This document shows, one piece after another, positions 14,738-43,413 of a stretch of 44,988 nucleotides of DNA. Each line of letters opens with the position of its first letter. Positions within the stretch are counted from its first letter, which is position 1. The notes under the pieces are model-generated. The model was given only the letters and a program-made list of their open reading frames with translations. It ran no database searches and had not been told where the DNA came from. Position numbers and translations under genes: made by a program. Source of the stretch: a virus; the IMG/VR virus record IMGVR_UViG_3300030328_001568, positions 1 through 44,988 of that record; one strand, written 5' to 3'.

Positions 14738-15349
14738 TTATATATTAAACCACTTATATATTTTTTGTGTTTCTTCTTTACGGTGCTTTAAACCGTTGTA
14801 TCCACCGTTTACTCTTTTAGTAATCGTCTTAATAGTTTCATCATTAACGCCTTCGTCGCAAATATCCCATAATTTGTTCCTATGAAAGAACCAAATAGCA
14901 CTCTCCATGGGAAATTTTGACGCAACAAGATCAGGGTCTTTCATAATTTCAGGTAAATCCATGTCCGCTGCAAACTGAGCGTAATTATTTTTGCCTGTGC
15001 ATTGTAAAAAACCTCGTCCTCTCCACAAATAACCCTGTCCATCATTACCCATTCTACCACCGTATACTCTGTCCGCTAATGCTTGTGGATTTCTTGCACA
15101 TTTTTCAGCATCGCTTTCGGATTCAAAGTATTTTCCAAACACTTTGAGAATAGATTCCGTAGAATAATTCAAATTTTCTTGAATATACCTGAAAGTTCCA
15201 CTTTCATGCACCAATTGACCCAAAAAATGCGCCCCACGCTCCGGATTCAACGCATAATGATTACAAATAGCTTTTGCCGTGTTGGGTCCAAACGCACCAT
15301 CCGGGTTTGAACCTATCTTTTCCTGTAATGTTTTAAGTGCTTCACTCAT
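14738..15349 (-). CDS. Endolysin, GH19 chitinase-like muramidase
   Basis: This is a 203-residue protein. The first ~30 residues (KTLQEKIGSNPDGAFGPNT) look like a truncated peptidoglycan-binding repeat. A GH19 fold follows: GQLVHESGTFRYIQENLNYS carries the acid residue at E49 with E58 as second acid, and YGGRMGNDGQG, YLWRGRGFLQCTGKNNY is the typical GH19 phage-lysin signature. GH19 phage lysins cleave the murein glycan chain. It lacks a signal peptide, so release to the wall must rely on the holins encoded next to it. It overlaps the upstream gene by 8 bases. Confidence 0.85.
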   Translation of the reverse strand: MSEALKTLQEKIGSNPDGAFGPNTAKAICNHYALNPERGAHFLGQLVHESGTFRYIQENLNYSTESILKVFGKYFESESDAEKCARNPQALADRVYGGRMGNDGQGYLWRGRGFLQCTGKNNYAQFAADMDLPEIMKDPDLVASKFPMESAIWFFHRNKLWDICDEGVNDETIKTITKRVNGGYNGLKHRKEETQKIYKWFNI

Positions 15350-15623
15350 TTACAAACTCCTTTGACCCGCAAACACGCTCATATACCATGTCCGACGTGT
15401 AACTTTCAGCCCATTTATTCTCAGTAAACGTGCAAAAAGCCCAGAGATCGTTTACATCGGCGTTAAGAAGCTGAATTATGTCCTCTTGTGCAGATACTTG
15501 ACCCTGTAAATGTTCAATATCATGCACGATGTTGCTGATATACCACACCAAACCAACTAATTGCACTGCCATGGCAAAAACCAGAGCTACTGGTATCTTT
15601 AAATCACCCATTTGATTTGCCAC
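15342..15623 (-). CDS. Membrane protein with coiled coil, spanin-like candidate
   Basis: This is a 93-residue protein. Residues 8-32 form one membrane helix (IPVALVFAMAVQLVGLVWYI) and residues 33-60 a short coiled coil (DIEHLQGQVSAQEDIIQLLN). A Cys-containing tail follows. Single N-terminal membrane helix plus periplasmic coiled coil is the layout of inner-membrane spanins, though the coiled coil here is short. It overlaps the endolysin start by 8 bases, which fits a lysis operon. I find no partner lipoprotein (no lipobox nearby), so the spanin role is only a candidate. Confidence 0.55.
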   Translation of the reverse strand: MANQMGDLKIPVALVFAMAVQLVGLVWYISNIVHDIEHLQGQVSAQEDIIQLLNADVNDLWAFCTFTENKWAESYTSDMVYERVCGSKEFVNE

Positions 15624-21403: not shown

Positions 21404-21700
21404 ACAAATATTTGTGAGAAACATGGCTCATGCTCTCGTGCCACAAGTCCGTGCGTCGCGGAAATTTGCGCGGAACTCTTTGATTTTGATGCATAAAAAT
21501 TGACCCGATAGTGTAAGGATCCTAGGAAAAAATAACGGCGCTCGATGCAGCAAACGCGGACATTGACCAGGCGAATTGATGCGCTGGGAATTTCCCGCGG
21601 ATCTCGAACCGTCGACCCAGTGCCGCGGTTCGCGGGTCGCGGTACGTTTGGCGGGGACGGCGGGCGGCGGGTCGCGGCAAGTATTAAACGCAAATAAAAA
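21404..21700. other. Noncoding GC-rich island upstream of terL
   Basis: I see no convincing gene on either strand in these about 300 bases. From about 21590 to 21680 the sequence becomes much more GC-rich than its surroundings. It holds repeated CGCGG words and two exact copies of CGGGTCGCGG (21633-21642 and 21668-21677). A plus-strand TTGACC-17-TAGGAA lies near 21501-21530 but faces no gene. Position between terL and the early genes makes this a candidate packaging (pac/cos) or replication start site, which is inference. Confidence 0.4.
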
Positions 21701-21717
21701 GCCCGCCAACGGCGGGC
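21690..21717 (-). terminator. Rho-independent terminator of the small-gene operon
   Basis: On the minus strand GCCCGCC (21717-21711) pairs perfectly with GGCGGGC (21707-21701) around a 3-base loop. TTTTTATTTG follows. It stands 26 bases after the stop of the 60-residue gene and separates early genes from the terL promoter region. Confidence 0.85.
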
Positions 21718-21742
21718 TAATCGGTTTTAAATGTGGATTGGT

Positions 21743-21927: not shown

Positions 21928-22611
21928 TTAATGCTCCACAATTGCGATTGATTTTGCGCGGCTTGAACCTTTACAAAGCTTGCACGCGGTACACTGTACA
22001 CGCCGCCCCGCTTCCTTAGACGCGGGACAAAGTATTTCATTTGTTTTATCGATATCGAAAACGTTTTCTATAACGCGGAACGTGCGGCGTTTGTTTTTCC
22101 AATGCTCAACAGCTTCCAGAATACTATCCGCGCTTTGCATCGCTATATCTGGACGCCATGGTTTTTGATGCGTGTACGCCGTCCACGTCTCACACTCGGA
22201 AAGCAATTGATCCCAAATATGAGAGGGAACGGCGGCGGGGTCGCCGTATGTACCGACGCGGACAAAACGACCACGCCCAATTGTTGCCGCGTTGCCTACT
22301 TGATAGACGCCGCGCTTGTATGCTTTCCAAACAATTAAAACGCCTTGTCCTAAATTGACATAGCATTTACGGTTTTTCGCTTGTTTTCTATCGGGGTCGT
22401 TTGTTACTTCCCCGCGCATTGGACAATTGCCGCAGATAGAATAGTCAGCGCCAGTCTTGCTTGCTTCCAATGGGTTTTTGTCTTCGTCGCACAAAATATA
22501 AGTTTGCACGACGTGACCAGTTTTTTTATTACGATTAGAATATGTCGCAATAACCACAATAGGCTTTTGATCAATTAAACTTGCGCCTTTATATATAATA
22601 GCTGATTTCAT
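21928..22611 (-). CDS. Cys-rich phage protein (DUF7227-like)
   Basis: This is a 227-residue protein with two Cys clusters: ICGNCPMRGEV near residues 58-68, and CPASKEAGRRVQCTACKLCKG near the C-terminus. Between them is CYVNLGQGVLIVWKAYKRGVYQ. I recall the CGNCPxR...CYVNxGQGPLxVWKAYKRGxY pattern in proteins of actinophages, plasmids and marine phages, listed under a DUF. The spacing suggests a metal site (Zn or Fe-S). It is the first gene after a promoter/stem-loop cassette at 22622-22682. Confidence 0.7.
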   Translation of the reverse strand: MKSAIIYKGASLIDQKPIVVIATYSNRNKKTGHVVQTYILCDEDKNPLEASKTGADYSICGNCPMRGEVTNDPDRKQAKNRKCYVNLGQGVLIVWKAYKRGVYQVGNAATIGRGRFVRVGTYGDPAAVPSHIWDQLLSECETWTAYTHQKPWRPDIAMQSADSILEAVEHWKNKRRTFRVIENVFDIDKTNEILCPASKEAGRRVQCTACKLCKGSSRAKSIAIVEH

Positions 22612-22621
22612 TTTTACCCCA

Positions 22622-22682
22622 TAAAAAAAACGGGCGGAATTACCCGCCCGCCCATAATGCGATAATATGCGATAATATGCAA
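22622..22682 (-). promoter_or_regulatory. Promoter/stem-loop cassette A
   Basis: On the minus strand TTGCAT (22682-22677), 17 bases, CATTAT (22659-22654) precede a hairpin. Its arms are CGGGCGG (22650-22644) and CCGCCCG (22637-22631) with a 6-base loop, followed by U8. The predicted start near 22647 lies inside the first arm. The spacer holds two tandem TATCGCAT words. The element fills the gap between two genes, from 3 bases past one stop to 10 bases before the next ATG. Confidence 0.75.
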
Positions 22683-22685
22683 GCT

Positions 22686-22979
22686 TTACTGGTCGATGAT
22701 ATTAGACCACTCTTCAAGATCAGTTTTAATATCGTCAATTTTGGCTTCGATAATCTTAACTAGCCTTTTTGCGTTTTGACGCCTTACAAAGTCTAAACAC
22801 GCCTCTATAGCTTGCTCATGCGTTTTGGCGTCGGCTTCAATAATAATTTCGATAATTTCGTGATCGTCTAAAAGATCCGCCAATATATCCCAACCGTCGG
22901 AAAAATAATTTTTTGAAGCATAACGGCGAACCGCATTGCGCAAATCTATTAAATTAGTATCAACACTTTTAATTTTCAT
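22686..22979 (-). CDS. Small acidic helical protein
   Basis: The protein is 97 residues from ATG 22979 (MKIKSVDTNLIDLRNAVRRY). It is mainly helical with an Ile/Glu/Asp-rich middle (DHEIIEIIIEADAKTHEQA) and an acidic C-terminus. The ATG lies in an AAAGATGAAAATTAA overlap with the preceding gene; starts further upstream lack a ribosome site. No family is recognised. Confidence 0.6.
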   Translation of the reverse strand: MKIKSVDTNLIDLRNAVRRYASKNYFSDGWDILADLLDDHEIIEIIIEADAKTHEQAIEACLDFVRRQNAKRLVKIIEAKIDDIKTDLEEWSNIIDQ

Positions 22980-23208
22980 CTTTAACGAACCCCGCCATAT
23001 CACAATCGAGCGAATAAATTTGCCCGAGCCAATCTTGAATACTTTCCAATAAATCAGAGTGGTGTTGATCGTCTAATTCGTCAATAATGCTGTTGCCCAG
23101 ATAAGTATTGATATCGTAAGCAAGGTTCTCAAGTTTAGCGCGGGCATCGTCCAACACCTTATATGATTTTAATAGCTGATCGCTAATGTCTTTAGCTTGA
23201 TTATCCAT
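22969..23208 (-). CDS. Small helical protein, unknown function
   Basis: The protein is 79 residues from ATG 23208 (MDNQAKDISDQLLKSYKVLD). It is acidic and helical and ends in GFVKDEN. It overlaps the next gene by 11 bases and follows the previous stop by 3 bases (TGATTGATG). Nothing indicates a specific role. Confidence 0.6.
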   Translation of the reverse strand: MDNQAKDISDQLLKSYKVLDDARAKLENLAYDINTYLGNSIIDELDDQHHSDLLESIQDWLGQIYSLDCDMAGFVKDEN

Positions 23209-23211
23209 CAA

Positions 23212-23565
23212 TCAATCCAACTCTATTTTAACTGTTAATCTGTCGTTGTGGATTAATTCCGTTAATTCGGTCGCGACCATTTCACCAATATCCACTTCGT
23301 TATCAATATCGTCTATACGACTTTCCAACTCGTAAATCTTTTCTTCAAGATCATCTTTGAAATTGGTTACATGATCGTCGAGAATTCTTTCAATCATCGG
23401 CTCAAGAAACGACGCGATTTTATTTTCTAAAGCTTCGCGCTTTTCAATTTCAATTTTTAAACGCTCTTCGAAATGGTCGCGGTTTTGTTGAACCCGCGCA
23501 AATGCCTTTTTAAAGGTGGCACTTTCAAAATTAACATTCTCAGTATTAGTGTTTAAATCTTCCAT
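23212..23565 (-). CDS. Coiled-coil early protein
   Basis: This is a 117-residue acidic protein. A coiled coil spans about residues 25-50 (RDHFEERLKIEIEKREALEN), and another about 68-90 (DDLEEKIYELESRIDDIDNE). It is the first gene after cassette B. Function unknown; the coiled coil suggests oligomerisation. Confidence 0.6.
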   Translation of the reverse strand: MEDLNTNTENVNFESATFKKAFARVQQNRDHFEERLKIEIEKREALENKIASFLEPMIERILDDHVTNFKDDLEEKIYELESRIDDIDNEVDIGEMVATELTELIHNDRLTVKIELD

Positions 23566-23577
23566 AATTTACCTCAT

Positions 23578-23638
23578 AAAAAAAAGCGGGCAGTGTTACC
23601 CGCCCGCCCATAATGCGATAATATGCGATATTGTGCAA
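23578..23638 (-). promoter_or_regulatory. Promoter/stem-loop cassette B
   Basis: On the minus strand TTGCAC (23638-23633), 17 bases, CATTAT (23615-23610) lead into a hairpin. Its arms are GCGGGC (23607-23602) and GCCCGC (23591-23586), or a 5-bp register with a shorter loop, followed by U8 (23585-23578). The predicted start near 23603 lies within the first arm. It is nearly identical to cassette A in the promoter (CGCATATTATCGCATTATGGGC) but differs in the loop. Confidence 0.75.
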
Positions 23639-23648
23639 GTTTATTTAT

Positions 23649-23828
23649 TCAAGCCAATAATTGGTAATATTGACCCTCGCACCATTCATTCCAACCATCC
23701 CGCCAATCGCTCAAATTATATGGCGTGTATTCGTCGGAATGGTCGCGATTAATTTCGCATAAAATTTCGTACAGCGACCATTGTTTTATTTTGCCAGTTT
23801 CAAGATCTCGAATAAAATACTTTTCCAT
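23649..23828 (-). CDS. Small protein, unknown function
   Basis: A 59-residue ORF begins MEKYFIRDLETGKIKQWSLY and ends WCEGQYYQLLA. ATG follows the previous gene's TAA directly (TAAATG). It is Trp/Tyr-rich (five Trp residues) and alpha-helical in composition. It was one residue too short for the usual cut-off. No family is recognised. Confidence 0.55.
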   Translation of the reverse strand: MEKYFIRDLETGKIKQWSLYEILCEINRDHSDEYTPYNLSDWRDGWNEWCEGQYYQLLA

Positions 23829-24083
23829 TTATTCTATCCAATCATCGGCATATTCGGACAACTCTTGATTAACAAATGCCCGCAATGCGGCGTCTTCGTC
23901 ATAAACCTCATTTGTACACTTCGAAGGCGGCGTAAAAATATTGAACGCGCCGCAACCGTATTTTGCAAATAGCGCCGTTGCTTCCTTAAACGTTCTTTTC
24001 TTTTCGGTGTCAGGATCTCGCAAATCGTGCAATTCGTAAATATCCCAAGGTTCGCCGCAATGGTTACAATAAATATCTGGCAT
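23829..24083 (-). CDS. Zinc-ribbon-like small protein
   Basis: This is an 84-residue protein starting MPDIYCNHCGEPWDIYELHD. One CxxC at residues 6-9 with two more Cys (44 and 56) could bind zinc. I recall CGEPWD-type proteins in many phages of different hosts, role unknown. It overlaps the gene above by one base and is followed directly by the 59-residue gene. Confidence 0.65.
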   Translation of the reverse strand: MPDIYCNHCGEPWDIYELHDLRDPDTEKKRTFKEATALFAKYGCGAFNIFTPPSKCTNEVYDEDAALRAFVNQELSEYADDWIE

Positions 24084-24541
24084 CAGTCGAACCTCGCAAA
24101 TTTTACAGTGTCTGGCTTGCCGACAATACGCAACGCAACCATTCCATATTCGTATTGCAAAACTTCCAAAAATTTATAGGTAAACTTCCCAATCGGATAT
24201 AAATCGGGTTCGCCGTCTTCGCCAAATATAATACCAAAATCGGACGGTTTCGTTGTCATAACGGATGACCCGAACCCGCCATATCCATAATTATCATCCA
24301 TACCTAAAGCAACTTTATTTAATGCGATCATTTTTAAATCGTTCTCGACGTGTTTATTTTCGTCGGCTTTGGTTATATCGGGTTCATTTGCTGTAACAGC
24401 CGCCGCGAAAAAATCAGGAATAAGCCCGCACCATTCATTTAATTGATCGGGCGTAAAATTGCCGTATTCGTCGCATTTAAGCGGGTTTAAAACTTTATCT
24501 AAAACGTAGTCGCTTACGCGTATTTCAAAAATATTTTCCAT
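24083..24541 (-). CDS. Early protein, unknown function
   Basis: The protein is 152 residues from ATG 24541 (MENIFEIRVSDYVLDKVLNP). TGAGG lies upstream. A longer frame to 24568 would translate the hairpin and is rejected. The protein is acidic, alpha/beta, with a Gly/Tyr-rich GMDDNYGYGGFGSSVMTTK near residue 90 and a C-terminal VALRIVGKPDTVKFARFD. It is the first gene after cassette C. No family is recognised. Confidence 0.65.
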   Translation of the reverse strand: MENIFEIRVSDYVLDKVLNPLKCDEYGNFTPDQLNEWCGLIPDFFAAAVTANEPDITKADENKHVENDLKMIALNKVALGMDDNYGYGGFGSSVMTTKPSDFGIIFGEDGEPDLYPIGKFTYKFLEVLQYEYGMVALRIVGKPDTVKFARFD

Positions 24542-24552
24542 TTTTTCCTCAT

Positions 24553-24613
24553 AAAAAAACCGTACCAAAATTAGTACGGTTTTAGTTATCTGATATTATC
24601 GCATACATTGCAA
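24553..24613 (-). promoter_or_regulatory. Promoter/stem-loop cassette C
   Basis: On the minus strand TTGCAA (24613-24608), 17 bases, GATAAC (24590-24585) precede a hairpin with arms CCGTAC/GTACGG (24579-24574 and 24565-24560). The arms are extended by flanking A/T pairs, and U7 follows. The predicted start near 24578 falls in the first arm. The spacer carries the TATCGCATA word in the opposite orientation to cassettes A and B. Confidence 0.7.
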
Positions 24614-24616
24614 GCT

Positions 24617-24721
24617 TTATTTTTTTCCGGGTTTTGGTTTGGGTTTTTGAATGGCAACAACGCCGTTGCCAATATAAACACCAGTTTTCCAATCGGGTTT
24701 AATTTGGGGTGTTTTTGTCAT
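24617..24721 (-). CDS. Very small basic protein
   Basis: A 34-residue ORF starts at ATG 24721, sharing a base with the previous stop (TAATG). It reads MTKTPQIKPDWKTGVYIGNG and ends in the Lys/Pro-rich KPKPKPGKK. GGAAGAGGAA in the end of the upstream gene serves as ribosome site. Function unknown; tight coupling and the cassette directly after its stop support it being real. Confidence 0.5.
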   Translation of the reverse strand: MTKTPQIKPDWKTGVYIGNGVVAIQKPKPKPGKK

Positions 24722-24843
24722 TATTCCTCTTCCTCTTCTGTTATAGGGAAAGACACCGCAACAAAATCGTACTCATCTGCGGTCGTTTCCCACTTGTGGG
24801 TTGGACAGGAATTTAACCATTCAAAAAATTCTTCGCGTGTCAT
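24721..24843 (-). CDS. Very small acidic protein
   Basis: A 40-residue ORF starts at ATG 24843, in an ATGA overlap with the previous stop. It begins MTREEFFEWLNSCPTHKWET and ends in five Glu. The GAAGAGGAAGAGGAA that codes for the Glu tail is also the ribosome-binding site of the next gene. No domain is recognised. Confidence 0.5.
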   Translation of the reverse strand: MTREEFFEWLNSCPTHKWETTADEYDFVAVSFPITEEEEE

Positions 24844-25040
24844 GTTTTTACCTCACTTATGTCCGTGTCTTGCACAAGAGTTTCACGGTGTACTATTTTT
24901 TGCTCGTCCACATATGGATAATCAGCTTCGGTATCATCCAATATTTCTTTAGCTTTTTCTTTTGCTTGTTCGGGGCTGTCTGCGTAAATAGTTAAAACAG
25001 CGCCCTCTTGGTAGTGAACCCCTACTCTATACTTTTTCAT
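24840..25040 (-). CDS. Small early protein, unknown function
   Basis: This is a 66-residue protein (MKKYRVGVHYQEGAVLTIYA, then DSPEQAKEKAKEILDD) with an N-terminal beta pair and a helix. The beta-helix pattern with 'ADSPEEA' is common in small phage proteins of unknown role. It starts after cassette D with TGAGGTG upstream. Confidence 0.6.
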   Translation of the reverse strand: MKKYRVGVHYQEGAVLTIYADSPEQAKEKAKEILDDTEADYPYVDEQKIVHRETLVQDTDISEVKT

Positions 25041-25052
25041 TATTCACCTCAT

Positions 25053-25110
25053 AAAAAAAAACGGAATAGTTTCCCTACTCCCGTATAATCCCATATATCT
25101 TATAATGCAA
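25053..25110 (-). promoter_or_regulatory. Promoter/stem-loop cassette D
   Basis: On the minus strand TTGCAT (25110-25105), 17 bases, TATACG (25087-25082) precede an imperfect hairpin (GGAGTAG pairing with CTATTCC around GGAAA) and U9. The spacer holds ATATGGGAT, the reverse of the TCCCATA word of later promoters. The predicted start near 25075 lies at the end of the first arm. Confidence 0.65.
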
Positions 25111-29701: not shown

Positions 29702-29891
29702 CTTCCTCCTCCTCGATAACTTCTACGTCTTGTCCCCACGTCCATGATCCGCTTTCAGTATCGGTAAACTCGCCACCGTCTACATTGTCTTTAATCCAGA
29801 GCCAGTAATCTTCTGGCTCTACGTCGTCGGGTACATCGCCCTCCCACTCAAGATCAACTTCCATGATTGCGTATGATCTTACTCTAGGCAT
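29694..29891 (-). CDS. Small acidic protein with Glu tail
   Basis: The protein is 65 residues from ATG 29891 (MPRVRSYAIMEVDLEWEGDV), strongly acidic, ending IEEEEDA. The bases that code for the tail (GAGGAGGAAG) act as ribosome site for the next gene. Junction ATGCCTAG overlaps the gene above by 8 bases. Confidence 0.55.
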   Translation of the reverse strand: MPRVRSYAIMEVDLEWEGDVPDDVEPEDYWLWIKDNVDGGEFTDTESGSWTWGQDVEVIEEEEDA

Positions 29892-38849: not shown

Positions 38850-40298
38850 ATGAAGAAATACGAATTTAAAACAAAACCATTCGATCACCAGTTAACCACG
38901 CTACAGGAATCTTGGGATAAGGAGTACTATGCACTCTTTATGGAGATGGGTACAGGAAAATCAAAAGTCGTTGTAGATAATATTGGAGTTTTGTTTGAAG
39001 AGGGTGAAATAGACGCCGCTCTGATCGTTGCCCCAAAGGGTGTGTATGATAACTGGGTACAAGGAGAGATACCCGTACACTTCCCGGATCATATAAATAA
39101 AAGGGTCTTGCGTTGGGAGCCAAAAACAACCAAGAGTTACCTTGCAGAATTGGAAGAGCATATAATGGAGCCGTTCAACGGGATTAAGTTCTTTGTTATG
39201 AACGTAGAAGCTTTTTCGACGCCTCGCGGAGCACAAACCGCGGGGCGATTTTTAGTTCAGAACCCTGATAATCTGATGGCGGTGGACGAAAGCACGACCA
39301 TCAAAAACCGCAAGGCTTCGCGGACCAAGAACCTCATGGTCTTGCACAAGTACGCCAAGTATCGGCGCATCCTTACAGGATCGCCAATCACCAAAAGCCC
39401 TATGGATTTATTTAGTCAGTGTAACTTTCTGGCAGAAAAGGCTCTGGGTTTTAACAGTTACTTTGCTTTTCAGAACCGCTACGCAATGGTGCAGAAGCGT
39501 GTCATGGGGGCTAAAAGCTTTCAGGAGATAACAGGCTACCGCAGGCTTGATGAGCTATCAGAAAAGCTCGACGTTTTTTCTAAACGTATTTTAAAAGAGG
39601 AATGTTTGGATTTACCTCAGAAGATATACATGAAGCGGTTTGTCCCGCTTTCGGAGGAACAAAGCAAAGTATACGAGCAGATGCGTAAGCTTGCTTTGGC
39701 TGAACTGGATAACGGAGAGCTTGCTACAACTGCAAGCGTTCTGACGCAGATTATGAGATTACAACAGATCTGCTGCGGGCATTTTACTCCTGACGTTGGA
39801 GAGATACGCACATTAAAGAACAACCGTCTGAATGAACTCTTGGACATTACAGACGAGCTACAGGGAAAAGCAATCATTTGGGCATCGTATACCCACGATA
39901 TTCAACAGATAGCTTCGGCCCTGCGCCACCGCTTTGGCGTCGAGGCGGTGGCACTTTATTACGGTGAGACACCACAAGATCAACGGCAAGATATTGTTGA
40001 CACGTTTCAAGACAAGGATAGCCCCTTGCGCTTCTTTGTGGGTCAACCCAAGACAGGAGGATATGGCATCACCCTGACAGAAGCAACCACAGTTATATAC
40101 TTCAGTAACAGTTATGACTTGGAGATTCGGTTACAGTCCGAGGACCGTGCGCATCGGATTGGGCAACACCACCCTGTGACTTATATTGATCTGGTATCGC
40201 CTAAGACAATAGACGAGAAGATACTTCAGGCGTTGCGTAGTAAGATTAATTTAGCGGAGAAGGTCTTGGGCGAGGACGCAAGGCAGTGGTTAACGTAG
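38850..40298 (+). CDS. SNF2-type DNA/RNA helicase
   Basis: This is a 482-residue protein, the only plus-strand gene. SF2 motifs: MEMGTGKS (31-38), ALIVAPKGVYDNWVQ (57-71), a DEST box LMAVDEST (142-149) in place of DEAH, LTGSPITKSP (175-184), IIWASYTHDI (342-351), and QSEDRAHRIGQ (429-439). Snf2/RAD54-type translocases move on duplex DNA. Phage copies are known in marine phages near PolA. It overlaps the neighbouring minus-strand gene by 53 bases at the 3' ends. Chromatin-style cofactors are absent. Confidence 0.9.
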   Translation: MKKYEFKTKPFDHQLTTLQESWDKEYYALFMEMGTGKSKVVVDNIGVLFEEGEIDAALIVAPKGVYDNWVQGEIPVHFPDHINKRVLRWEPKTTKSYLAELEEHIMEPFNGIKFFVMNVEAFSTPRGAQTAGRFLVQNPDNLMAVDESTTIKNRKASRTKNLMVLHKYAKYRRILTGSPITKSPMDLFSQCNFLAEKALGFNSYFAFQNRYAMVQKRVMGAKSFQEITGYRRLDELSEKLDVFSKRILKEECLDLPQKIYMKRFVPLSEEQSKVYEQMRKLALAELDNGELATTASVLTQIMRLQQICCGHFTPDVGEIRTLKNNRLNELLDITDELQGKAIIWASYTHDIQQIASALRHRFGVEAVALYYGETPQDQRQDIVDTFQDKDSPLRFFVGQPKTGGYGITLTEATTVIYFSNSYDLEIRLQSEDRAHRIGQHHPVTYIDLVSPKTIDEKILQALRSKINLAEKVLGEDARQWLT

Positions 40299-43200
40299 CG
40301 ATACCCTCTGGCTCCTGATACATCTTTTTCGGTTGTCCTTTTATGACCCCAGGAACCGCAGGCTGTATCGTTTCGATACCCTCTACAGCCCGTTGCTGCG
40401 GAGCAACGCTTGAAAAGAAGGTAGGAGGTACATCTGGTCTTGCGGGAGGCGCAGCATACATTCTGTTTTCCACAGGAGGGGCGGGATAATCTTGCATTAA
40501 AGATACGGCTGTTTCAGGAGATTGCTTAAACATTTCCATTTGATTCATGTCTTTTGGATTAAACCCTTGAAGGGCCGCAGTCACTTTTATAGGATATTGC
40601 ACAGCTTCGTCAGTCAATATATTAAAGTTTCTTCCTGACGCAATAAATCTATCAACATTGGTTTTACCCGCATTATAGGCGCGTAAAGCATCATCAACTT
40701 CAGTATATTGATTTAACATTGCGTCAAGATATTGATTACCAAGTTCGACATTTACATCAGGTAAAAACAACAGACGTTTCAAAGTTTCGTCAGAGGTATC
40801 GTTAAAACCGTAACCCAATCTCTCTGCTATTTCAAAAGCGTTCTCTACTCCATAACCGGGATCGCGGGCCGTGGGCAGCATGATTTGCATTAAGCCAATT
40901 GCTCCGTCGGGACTTACTGCGTTTGGATCTCCACCGCTTTCCGTCATCATCACTGCGTTTCGTAGTCCTTCGATTTCTACTTTATCTCGCGCAGTGGCTG
41001 CTCCGCCTTGAGAAAACTCCTTGCTGAAATTAAACTCAATATTTGGTTTTCCCCGGTTAGAGTCGCTGTATCTAATTATACCGTTTTTACCAACGCGGAT
41101 TGTAGCAGAACCTTCATTAACAGTTTCTCTTCCAGAACCTTCCGTTCTATTTAAATCTATTCCAAACTTACCCAAATCCATGCCAAGGTTAAAACGTTTT
41201 AAAAGACCGTCTCTGGTTTCTACAAGCTCGCCTTCTGGCAAAGAAAAATTAGTGTCGGTGCGAGACTTCTCTATTTCAAAAGCACCACGAACCTTATCCT
41301 CACTTTGGGGGTTTAAGAACAACTCACCCTCTAACGCAAACCCTATTTGCTTGCCCTCTTCGTCTATTACCACGTCACCCATGTTTCGAGAACGGTTTTG
41401 AGTAGAGTAATCAAAGGAAGGAGTTAATGAGCCAAGGCCCCCCTCATATGTTTTTCTAATTTCACTATCAAACATTCCACCGTCATCTGTTTGAGTGTAT
41501 GACATACGTCCATCAACGGGAAGATCTAGAGGTCTTAAATTAACGTTGACTTCACCACCATTTGTAAACTGTTGATAAGCGCCAATGCCCCGTGGGCCGC
41601 GGAACATGTCCCGGGCTACGTTGTTTAAAGACGCAATGCCCTCAACAGGACCGCCCATAGCCTTTTTATCGGTTCTTCTAAAAAACCCCTCTCTCATAGG
41701 AGGAAAATTAAATGAATCCCGCAAAGGTTCATCCGACCTGTCAAATTCCGGCGTATCTGGTTTTGCGGCAAAATTGTAATTAGAAGTGGGACGATCAAAT
41801 TCATCAAATCGCCCTTGTTTAGAAGAAGCCTTTGGTCTTATAACTCTATTTTTAAAATCCAGTTCAGAATATGACAAATAACCTTTGGGATTAGATTTTA
41901 AACCCTTAGTATTAATTAAAGCAGGAGATTGAAAATCAGTTAATGGAAGATTATTTTCAAACAATTTAATAACTATTGGAATTTCAGGTAAATCCATTTG
42001 TAAGGCAGCATGAAGTCGATGGTGGCCTTCATTCAATAAAACCTCGCCAGTTTCTTTACTAACACCAATTATAACAGGTTCTTTGATGCCATCGTTATGA
42101 ATGCTTTCCCTAAGTGTTTCCTGCCCAGATTCAGCAAATTCTCTAATGTCTGTGGACATAGGGTCGTAAAAATCTTCGCCCGCTCTTTGATAGGTACTTA
42201 CATTGTATTTTATACTATTTCCACGCGGAATTAAATCACTTATTTCCTGAGTGCTAACATATTCAACTTTTGGATTATCAAAAGCTCGTCTCGGGGAACT
42301 AATGTTATTTTTCTCTGCATATCGAATAACATTTTTATTTATTTCATTAGCACTTTCTTTTGCTATCTTACCGTCCTCTATTATATCTTCGATATTTTTA
42401 TCATTTATTTTTTTTGCGTTTGTTTTTAAGAAATCTTCTGCAAAATCAGCTTTGCGAACCATCTGCATGGATGGATTCTGCATGGATGGATATGGCATTG
42501 AAATAGGGCCAAGATTTATTTCCTGATAGTCTTCTAAAAACAATCTTGCATATGGATACTTATCAATACCATTTTTGTCTTTTTGCAAATGTAGTTTTCT
42601 TGTTTTTATCTCATCAGCAATAACGTCAGACATATCATTTTCAAGATTTAAATTTTTTACGACGTCGTAGATATCTACGTTATCTTCATAAACATTTTCT
42701 AATACAAACTCTAAATCATCATCCGGTGCATTCTTTATTAAAACCGGATCATCATTAAGCATTTCAAAAACTTCATTATATTCGTCTTTAAGTATTTGTT
42801 CATTAACATCTTGATCCCTGCTTGCCTGAACATACTGTTCATCTAATTCTTTCGTAAGTGCCGGCGTCTCATTTGGATTGTCTCTGAAATCAATGTCATC
42901 TTTTAACGCTTGAAGATCCGAAATTTGTCTTTTTAACTCACGTATATTTGCAGCCGCAGAAGTAAAAATACTGGTGCGAGGGGCCCCCGGGCCGCGTTTC
43001 GCTACCTGTGTGGCAACATCAGTAATAACATCTGGCGCTAATGCCGCTACGGGGAGGGTGGCTGCCGCTCCGGCAAGAAAGTTCCGGCGGCTTGGGTCTT
43101 GTACAACATCCTTAACAACCTCGTCCGCCGCCTGCGGACCACTAAAACCCGTAAAAATTTCAGGAATAGCTTGCGCCGCCTTTTGGCCCCCGAATCTTGC

Positions 43201-43413
43201 AAACAAAGGCGTCAAACCATAGGCCGCAGTGCCAACTAAAGATTCAATACCCCTACCAATTCTCTCCCGCATTGGAAGATTGTCAGGATTAGCAATCGCA
43301 TCAACCGACCCATCTCCTAGACGGTAAAGATCCACAGGAACATTTAATAAAGTAAGCGCACGATTGACGTTATCAAAACCAGGTAGGTTTATATAGCGGT
43401 CATACTCAGCCAT
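40246..43413 (-). CDS. Large virion protein with ParB-like and lytic transglycosylase domains
   Basis: This is a 1055-residue protein. Residues 108-115 hold a twin-Arg motif SRRNFLAG followed by a hydrophobic AAATLPVAALA, but internal rather than N-terminal. Residues about 405-485 form a ParB-like fold with LRESIHNDGIKEPVIIG and NEGHHRLHAA. A beta-rich segment (620-800) follows. An SLT-type transglycosylase domain (about 813-925) has MTESGGDP (E825 catalytic), GLMQIM and LRAYNAGKTN. A Pro-rich tail ends it. It likely cuts murein when DNA enters the cell. The protein's C-terminal coding end overlaps the SNF2 gene by 53 bases. Confidence 0.8.
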   Translation of the reverse strand: MAEYDRYINLPGFDNVNRALTLLNVPVDLYRLGDGSVDAIANPDNLPMRERIGRGIESLVGTAAYGLTPLFARFGGQKAAQAIPEIFTGFSGPQAADEVVKDVVQDPSRRNFLAGAAATLPVAALAPDVITDVATQVAKRGPGAPRTSIFTSAAANIRELKRQISDLQALKDDIDFRDNPNETPALTKELDEQYVQASRDQDVNEQILKDEYNEVFEMLNDDPVLIKNAPDDDLEFVLENVYEDNVDIYDVVKNLNLENDMSDVIADEIKTRKLHLQKDKNGIDKYPYARLFLEDYQEINLGPISMPYPSMQNPSMQMVRKADFAEDFLKTNAKKINDKNIEDIIEDGKIAKESANEINKNVIRYAEKNNISSPRRAFDNPKVEYVSTQEISDLIPRGNSIKYNVSTYQRAGEDFYDPMSTDIREFAESGQETLRESIHNDGIKEPVIIGVSKETGEVLLNEGHHRLHAALQMDLPEIPIVIKLFENNLPLTDFQSPALINTKGLKSNPKGYLSYSELDFKNRVIRPKASSKQGRFDEFDRPTSNYNFAAKPDTPEFDRSDEPLRDSFNFPPMREGFFRRTDKKAMGGPVEGIASLNNVARDMFRGPRGIGAYQQFTNGGEVNVNLRPLDLPVDGRMSYTQTDDGGMFDSEIRKTYEGGLGSLTPSFDYSTQNRSRNMGDVVIDEEGKQIGFALEGELFLNPQSEDKVRGAFEIEKSRTDTNFSLPEGELVETRDGLLKRFNLGMDLGKFGIDLNRTEGSGRETVNEGSATIRVGKNGIIRYSDSNRGKPNIEFNFSKEFSQGGAATARDKVEIEGLRNAVMMTESGGDPNAVSPDGAIGLMQIMLPTARDPGYGVENAFEIAERLGYGFNDTSDETLKRLLFLPDVNVELGNQYLDAMLNQYTEVDDALRAYNAGKTNVDRFIASGRNFNILTDEAVQYPIKVTAALQGFNPKDMNQMEMFKQSPETAVSLMQDYPAPPVENRMYAAPPARPDVPPTFFSSVAPQQRAVEGIETIQPAVPGVIKGQPKKMYQEPEGIATLTTALRPRPRPSPLN

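Follow-up and report, generated by a model that had tools for sequence, protein, structure and literature searches.

Between the small (TerS) and large (TerL) terminase genes of a marine phage, four intergenic cassettes (C1-C4) set a promoter-like sequence directly against a GC hairpin with a U-tract. The question raised by this locus is whether such an element could end one transcript and begin the next. The window, that is, the whole stretch of DNA analysed here, is an IMG/VR virus record of 44,988 bases. Its source phage is HTVC023P/HTVC027P-like and not T4-type: the terminase is 63% identical to that of Pelagibacter phage HTVC027P and 53% identical to that of HTVC023P, and a family-A DNA polymerase is encoded in the window. 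A megablast of the window against phages returned no match. The window also encodes a 1055-aa protein (40246-43413), separate stretches of which match ParB-like partition proteins and a lytic transglycosylase/tail lysin.

All four cassettes lie on the minus strand and share one order: a stop codon, TTGCAx, a 17-base spacer, a -10-like hexamer, a GC hairpin, U7-U9, ATGGGG or ATGAGG, and ATG. The features of the interval are as follows.

21700..21718, minus strand: ordinary intrinsic terminator, which closes the last module before TerL and is conserved in relatives
21928..22611, minus strand: phrog_2554 gene, function unknown; predicted module of C1, found after a C4-type cassette in five relatives
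22623..22682, minus strand: C1; -35 TTGCAT at 22682-22677, 17-nt spacer, -10 CATTAT at 22659-22654
22653-22631, minus strand: C1 hairpin GGGCGGGCGGGTAATTCCGCCCG, then U8 at 22630-22623, ATGGGG at 22622-22617 and the downstream gene start at 22611
23212..23565, minus strand: 117-aa gene after C2; the slot varies among relatives and holds the 117-aa homologue or a g22969 homologue
23578..23638, minus strand: C2; -35 TTGCAC at 23638-23633, 17-nt spacer, -10 CATTAT at 23615-23610
23609-23586, minus strand: C2 hairpin GGGCGGGCGGGTAACACTGCCCGC, then U8 at 23585-23578, ATGAGG and the downstream gene start at 23565
24083..24541, minus strand: gene after C3, kept together with its cassette in relatives
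24553..24613, minus strand: C3; -35 TTGCAA at 24613-24608, 17-nt spacer, -10 GATAAC at 24590-24585
24579-24560, minus strand: G-C core of the C3 hairpin CCGTACTAATTTTGGTACGG, with an A-U extension to 24583, then U7 at 24559-24553, ATGAGG and ATG at 24541
24840..25040, minus strand: 66-aa gene after C4; the phrog_2554 gene stands here instead in the relatives L083, L084, L008 and L174
25053..25110, minus strand: C4; -35 TTGCAT at 25110-25105, 17-nt spacer, -10 TATACG at 25087-25082
25081-25063, minus strand: C4 hairpin GGAGTAGGGAAACTATTCC, then U9 at 25061-25053, ATGAGG and the downstream gene start at 25040

A preliminary description of this DNA had reported four cassettes with this order and at these positions, and direct reading and measurement bear it out. 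The outermost G-C pair of the hairpin lies 0-5 nt after the -10 in C1-C4, always past its end, and the predicted transcription start (the 7th base after the -10) falls inside the 5' arm in all four. In another phage the initiating nucleotide lies about 6 bp after the -10 (PMC7698491). The predicted start of C3 is only the 2nd or 3rd base of the G-C core, so little of the core is removed. C4 has a weak stem of 7 bp (-9.5 kcal/mol). The hexamers CATTAT, GATAAC and TATACG are poor consensus matches, and a generic promoter scan of the window omits the cassette promoters because their -35 and -10 are weak. The identity of the promoters therefore rests on conservation. The -35 CTTG and the 17-base distance to the proposed -10 recur in nearly all aligned family members, and the A, T and A inside the -10 are invariant across the aligned cassette family. 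The 8-mer ATCGCATA occurs seven times in the window, against 1.15 expected. Six copies are at promoter-like intergenic places (27792, 25845, 24598, 23629, 22673 and 21367), three of them within cassette spacers, and the 8-mer is a candidate operator of a phage regulator.

Each cassette is probably a composite promoter-terminator, one that ends the previous transcript and starts the next. As we picture it, a polymerase arriving from the upstream gene would transcribe both the complete inverted repeat and the U-tract, where it would be released. A polymerase starting at the cassette's own promoter would begin in the 5' arm and make RNA that lacks the outer part of the stem. With a weaker hairpin or none, this RNA would extend past the U-tract to the ribosome site and coding sequence of the downstream gene. 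Some 60 bp would thus end one module and start the next, and the small genes would be insulated from their neighbours. Promoter activity, start position, termination of read-through and escape of the promoter-borne RNA are all predictions from sequence in this scheme. The GC stem, the U7-U9 tract and the covariation described below fit an effective terminator in C1-C4.

The register between promoter and hairpin was assessed in 249 non-redundant U-tract hairpins from loci found by protein similarity alone. Promoter-like pairs with the end of the -10 at -3 to 6 from the arm numbered 29, compared with 14.1 +/- 4.1 in dinucleotide shuffles (maximum 25 among 40 shuffles); larger promoter-hairpin distances showed no significant enrichment among the 249 hairpins. 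In a filtered set of relatives' cassettes, the -10 is within -2 to 5 nt of the hairpin in 52 of 56. The filter placed the promoter window about 26-37 nt before the hairpin and so bounded the distance range by design, and this set therefore illustrates rather than tests the register. The unbounded tests are the shuffle test and a survey of IMG/VR for TTGACA-17-TATAAT followed by T7 18-48 nt later.

The survey gave 114 distinct sites among the matches listed; the effective number is smaller, because some contigs are related. A hairpin stands against the T-tract in 41 of these 114 listed sites (2.3% in shuffles), and among those listed it begins 0-6 nt after the -10 in 29 of the 41. When T7 was instead placed 50-80 nt away, the hairpins among the matches listed were spread over 28-60 nt and had no 0-6 nt peak. 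Among the listed contigs are phages that carry psbA, transaldolase, groEL or NAD-dependent ligase genes, and contigs with T4-type genes. The layout with the predicted start inside the hairpin is thus widespread, being found in psbA cyanophages, T4-type phages and others. The suggestion that the start lies inside or at the edge of the first arm, first made for the four cassettes, extends to independent hairpin families and to unrelated phages. On two psbA contigs (L208, L239) a composite promoter-terminator lies directly downstream of psbA, and apparently ends psbA and starts the next gene. We had also considered that phage leaders might as a rule lack strong terminators, as hairpins at d 7-22 are weaker (median -8.0, n=10). 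This idea was dropped, given that hairpins 28-60 nt downstream are not weaker (-12.3, n=30).

Relatives of the locus were collected by similarity to the large terminase and to the phrog_2554 protein, which yielded 147 loci. Protein searches with the genes after C3 and C2 found few relatives. The exact -35 to U7-ATGAGG pattern occurs in only 33 IMG/VR stretches, and the inspected ones are mostly relatives of the window phage. Aligned, the relatives' cassettes carry several hairpin families at one position, among them GGGCGGG, CCGTACTAATTTTGGTACGG, CGGGATTAGGGAACTGATCCCG and GCGAGCGGG. For C4, the stem in relatives is an unbroken 9 bp, with both sides changed. The C3 family has all its cells paired and one pair changed on both sides; its sequences are too few for this to rise above shuffles. 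Of the cells in the GGGCGGG family, 98% are paired, and the 7 double-changed ones were equalled by 1 of 500 shuffles. Column pair 38-59 of this family is A-U in six sequences, G-C in six and G-U in one; column pair 41-56 has one G-C to A-U change and is unpaired in two. The 5' bases of both covarying pairs lie upstream of the predicted start, which, given this promoter call, points to selection on the read-through RNA. Related sequences can beat shuffles without structure, and the covariation is supportive of conserved pairing rather than proof of it. These pair changes agree with the earlier suggestion that structure is kept while sequence changes, and conserved pairing in homologous phages, whose absence had been named as a refutation, is supported. 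The freshwater relative DSL-LC04 (L188) has, in its TerS-TerL interval (15325-15400), a TTGACA promoter overlapped by a hairpin; here the -10 forms part of the 5' arm of the hairpin, which spans 28 nt, carries U6 and is unrelated in sequence to the window cassettes. No cassettes were found in the TerS-TerL interval of the close isolates HTVC027P, 023Pt_psg01 and HTVC023P.

Escape of the promoter-borne RNA, a likely but still putative step, fits the predicted folding energies of the survey and is weaker in the window. Among the matches listed, the median energy of 31 survey hairpins with d <=6 goes from -14.5 to -3.4 kcal/mol when folded from the predicted start. At least half of the hairpin energy is lost in 87% of these 31 listed sites, and almost no structure is left in 48% of the listed sites. 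For the 56 relatives' cassettes, the median goes from -16.2 to only -8.7 kcal/mol. The preliminary description had expected RNA started at the cassette promoter to escape. In the window this would hold for C4, which falls to -2.9 kcal/mol from the 7th base, and is in doubt for C3, C1 and C2, which keep -7.4, -8.5 and -12.0 kcal/mol; from the 9th base the values are 0 (C4), -1.5 (C3), -5.7 (C1) and -6.7 kcal/mol (C2). The G-rich GGGCGGGCGGG arms of C1 and C2 re-pair in a shifted register and so keep pairing energy, which makes escape least certain for these two. Since C1-C3 keep a short stem beside the U-tract, some termination of promoter-borne RNA is possible.

These residual hairpins are not negligible and would also suit an attenuator. 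On that account transcription would begin before the hairpin, and the RNA would include the complete terminator, which would throttle expression or let antitermination switch it. C3 and several relatives do have an extended -10, TGCGATAAT, 10 bp before the proposed one, and a start from it would give RNA with the whole hairpin. By sequence reading, however, only C3 among the four cassettes has this upstream -10, the near-constant CTTG and 17-base distance and the invariant A, T and A mark the proposed -10, and the survey hairpins among the matches listed adjoin the -10 instead of standing at least 7 nt away. We therefore consider an attenuator unlikely. It is quite improbable that the residual stem instead serves at the 5' end of the mRNA, protecting it from decay or helping the ribosome site, with termination secondary. 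C1 and C2 would in fact leave a stem without an unpaired 5' base, by the shifted GGGCGGGCGGG pairing. However, the outer pairs missing from the promoter-borne mRNA still covary, a long U-tract follows the hairpin, and nearly half of the listed survey sites keep almost no structure.

The composite promoter-terminators may also mark the joints of gene modules. In a nucleotide alignment of the window with a relative locus (L083), similarity ends 5 nt inside the gene that follows C4 (25035) and restarts at 24624, the start of C3. For the phrog_2554 gene, alignment starts within the C1 hairpin, at 22634; in L083 this gene follows a C4-type cassette. C1 is instead 90% identical (over 22686-22606) to the C2-type cassette of L083, which precedes a g23212 homologue. 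In L084 and L009 the breaks almost coincide with these, and in L008 they lie no more than a few tens of bases away; two other breaks, at 23206 and 21921, are gene ends and not cassettes. Gene content between TerS and TerL varies among relatives. Modular shuffling is supported by the alignment breaks located within cassettes or at their borders. The pattern is most simply read as recombination between cassettes, with which it is consistent but of which it is no proof. We propose that the cassettes act as exchange joints because every module begins with similar DNA. That the repeated parts are only homology for exchange, with start position and hairpin functionally uncoupled, is very improbable, for although the alignment breaks at cassettes and C1 and C2 are 89% identical despite their differing genes, copying by homology fails to explain a register that recurs in unrelated phages with unrelated sequences, with a similar overlap in DSL-LC04.

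The closest known systems are the PeSL (promoter-early stem-loop) cassettes, reportedly described from the T4-type phages RB49/phi1 (by Arbiol in 2010) and PST/nt-1 (by Comeau in 2014). They are said to join a sigma70-like promoter and a stem-loop within about 60 bp, to be repeated among variable small genes and to be sites of module exchange. The stem-loop is reportedly an effective terminator, and small circular DNAs are said to arise by inter-cassette recombination. The window cassettes likewise have a sigma70-like promoter (so called by its sequence) directly joined to a stem-loop, in four copies within the variable small-gene region between TerS and TerL. Their gene-module joints (25035, 24624, 22634) are consistent with exchange. 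The resemblance to T4-type PeSLs proposed in the preliminary description is thus supported, down to the alignment breaks. As the phage is not T4-type, we do not file the cassettes as PeSLs, only as working like them. The best reading is a PeSL-like composite promoter-terminator outside T4-type phages, conserved and with a distinct register. One paper sums up PeSLs as agents of gene shuffling in T4-like phages (PMC4503421).

RB49 was compared over 1-50000 and 120001-164018, at promoters with a detected ribosome site and a stem. In 15 of 17 promoters the stem has no U-tract and either occupies the -35/-10 spacer or spans the -10, and in those 15 the start comes after the hairpin or in its 3' arm. 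In the window, by contrast, the hairpin follows the -10, carries U7-U9 and has the predicted start in its 5' arm. RB49 modB (9482) has nearly the same layout as the window cassettes, with the same order and a U-tract, and KVP40 has a similar one at 29825, the only clear case in its positions 1-40000. The novelty earlier claimed for a start inside the hairpin was thus overstated. PeSLs and window cassettes share the principle that the whole stem is found only in read-through RNA, and from modB, KVP40 29825 and most RB49 stems the start-position logic is already implicit in known PeSLs. Lambdoid phage morons, genes with their own promoter and terminator (PMC1524935), are likewise small independently transcribed modules; in morons, however, promoter and terminator flank the gene, whereas the window element would serve both neighbours. 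Halovirus HF2 has repeated intergenic cassettes carrying promoters (PMC8707807), as in the window; these promoters are archaeal, and the parts of that source consulted do not mention promoter-terminator overlap.

It is quite possible, if short of probable, that promoters with their start inside a terminator arose repeatedly in tailed phages and serve there generally as a one-way transcription valve. Formation of the hairpin would depend on where transcription starts, so that read-through is terminated and the element's own transcript passes, and released polymerase may be handed to the overlapping promoter. In vitro, polymerase that has terminated is able to slide backwards and initiate again at a promoter located upstream of the terminator (PMC6978380); we speculate that promoter-terminator overlap would favour such restart. 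If the element owes its function to the register, it would be a phage insulator of about 60 bp without separate terminator and promoter. It would help to explain how small phage genes are swapped without disturbing their neighbours, and would offer a compact unit for synthetic biology. Sequence searches detect the layout in T4-type phages and, in cyanophages, beside psbA.

Other arrangements were seen upstream of the phrog_2554 gene. In ten loci (L086-L089, L093, L101-L103, L110 and L112) an SD-like GGGAG is separated from the phrog_2554 start codon by a GC hairpin with a U-tract, and no promoter is seen upstream of the gene; this hairpin could attenuate or shorten the SD-to-start distance. 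Many loci among L090-L134 have short GC-rich repeat arrays (GGCGCAAG, GGCCGCAGGGTCGCAGAG) upstream of the gene, which adjoin, on the upstream side, a promoter without a hairpin.
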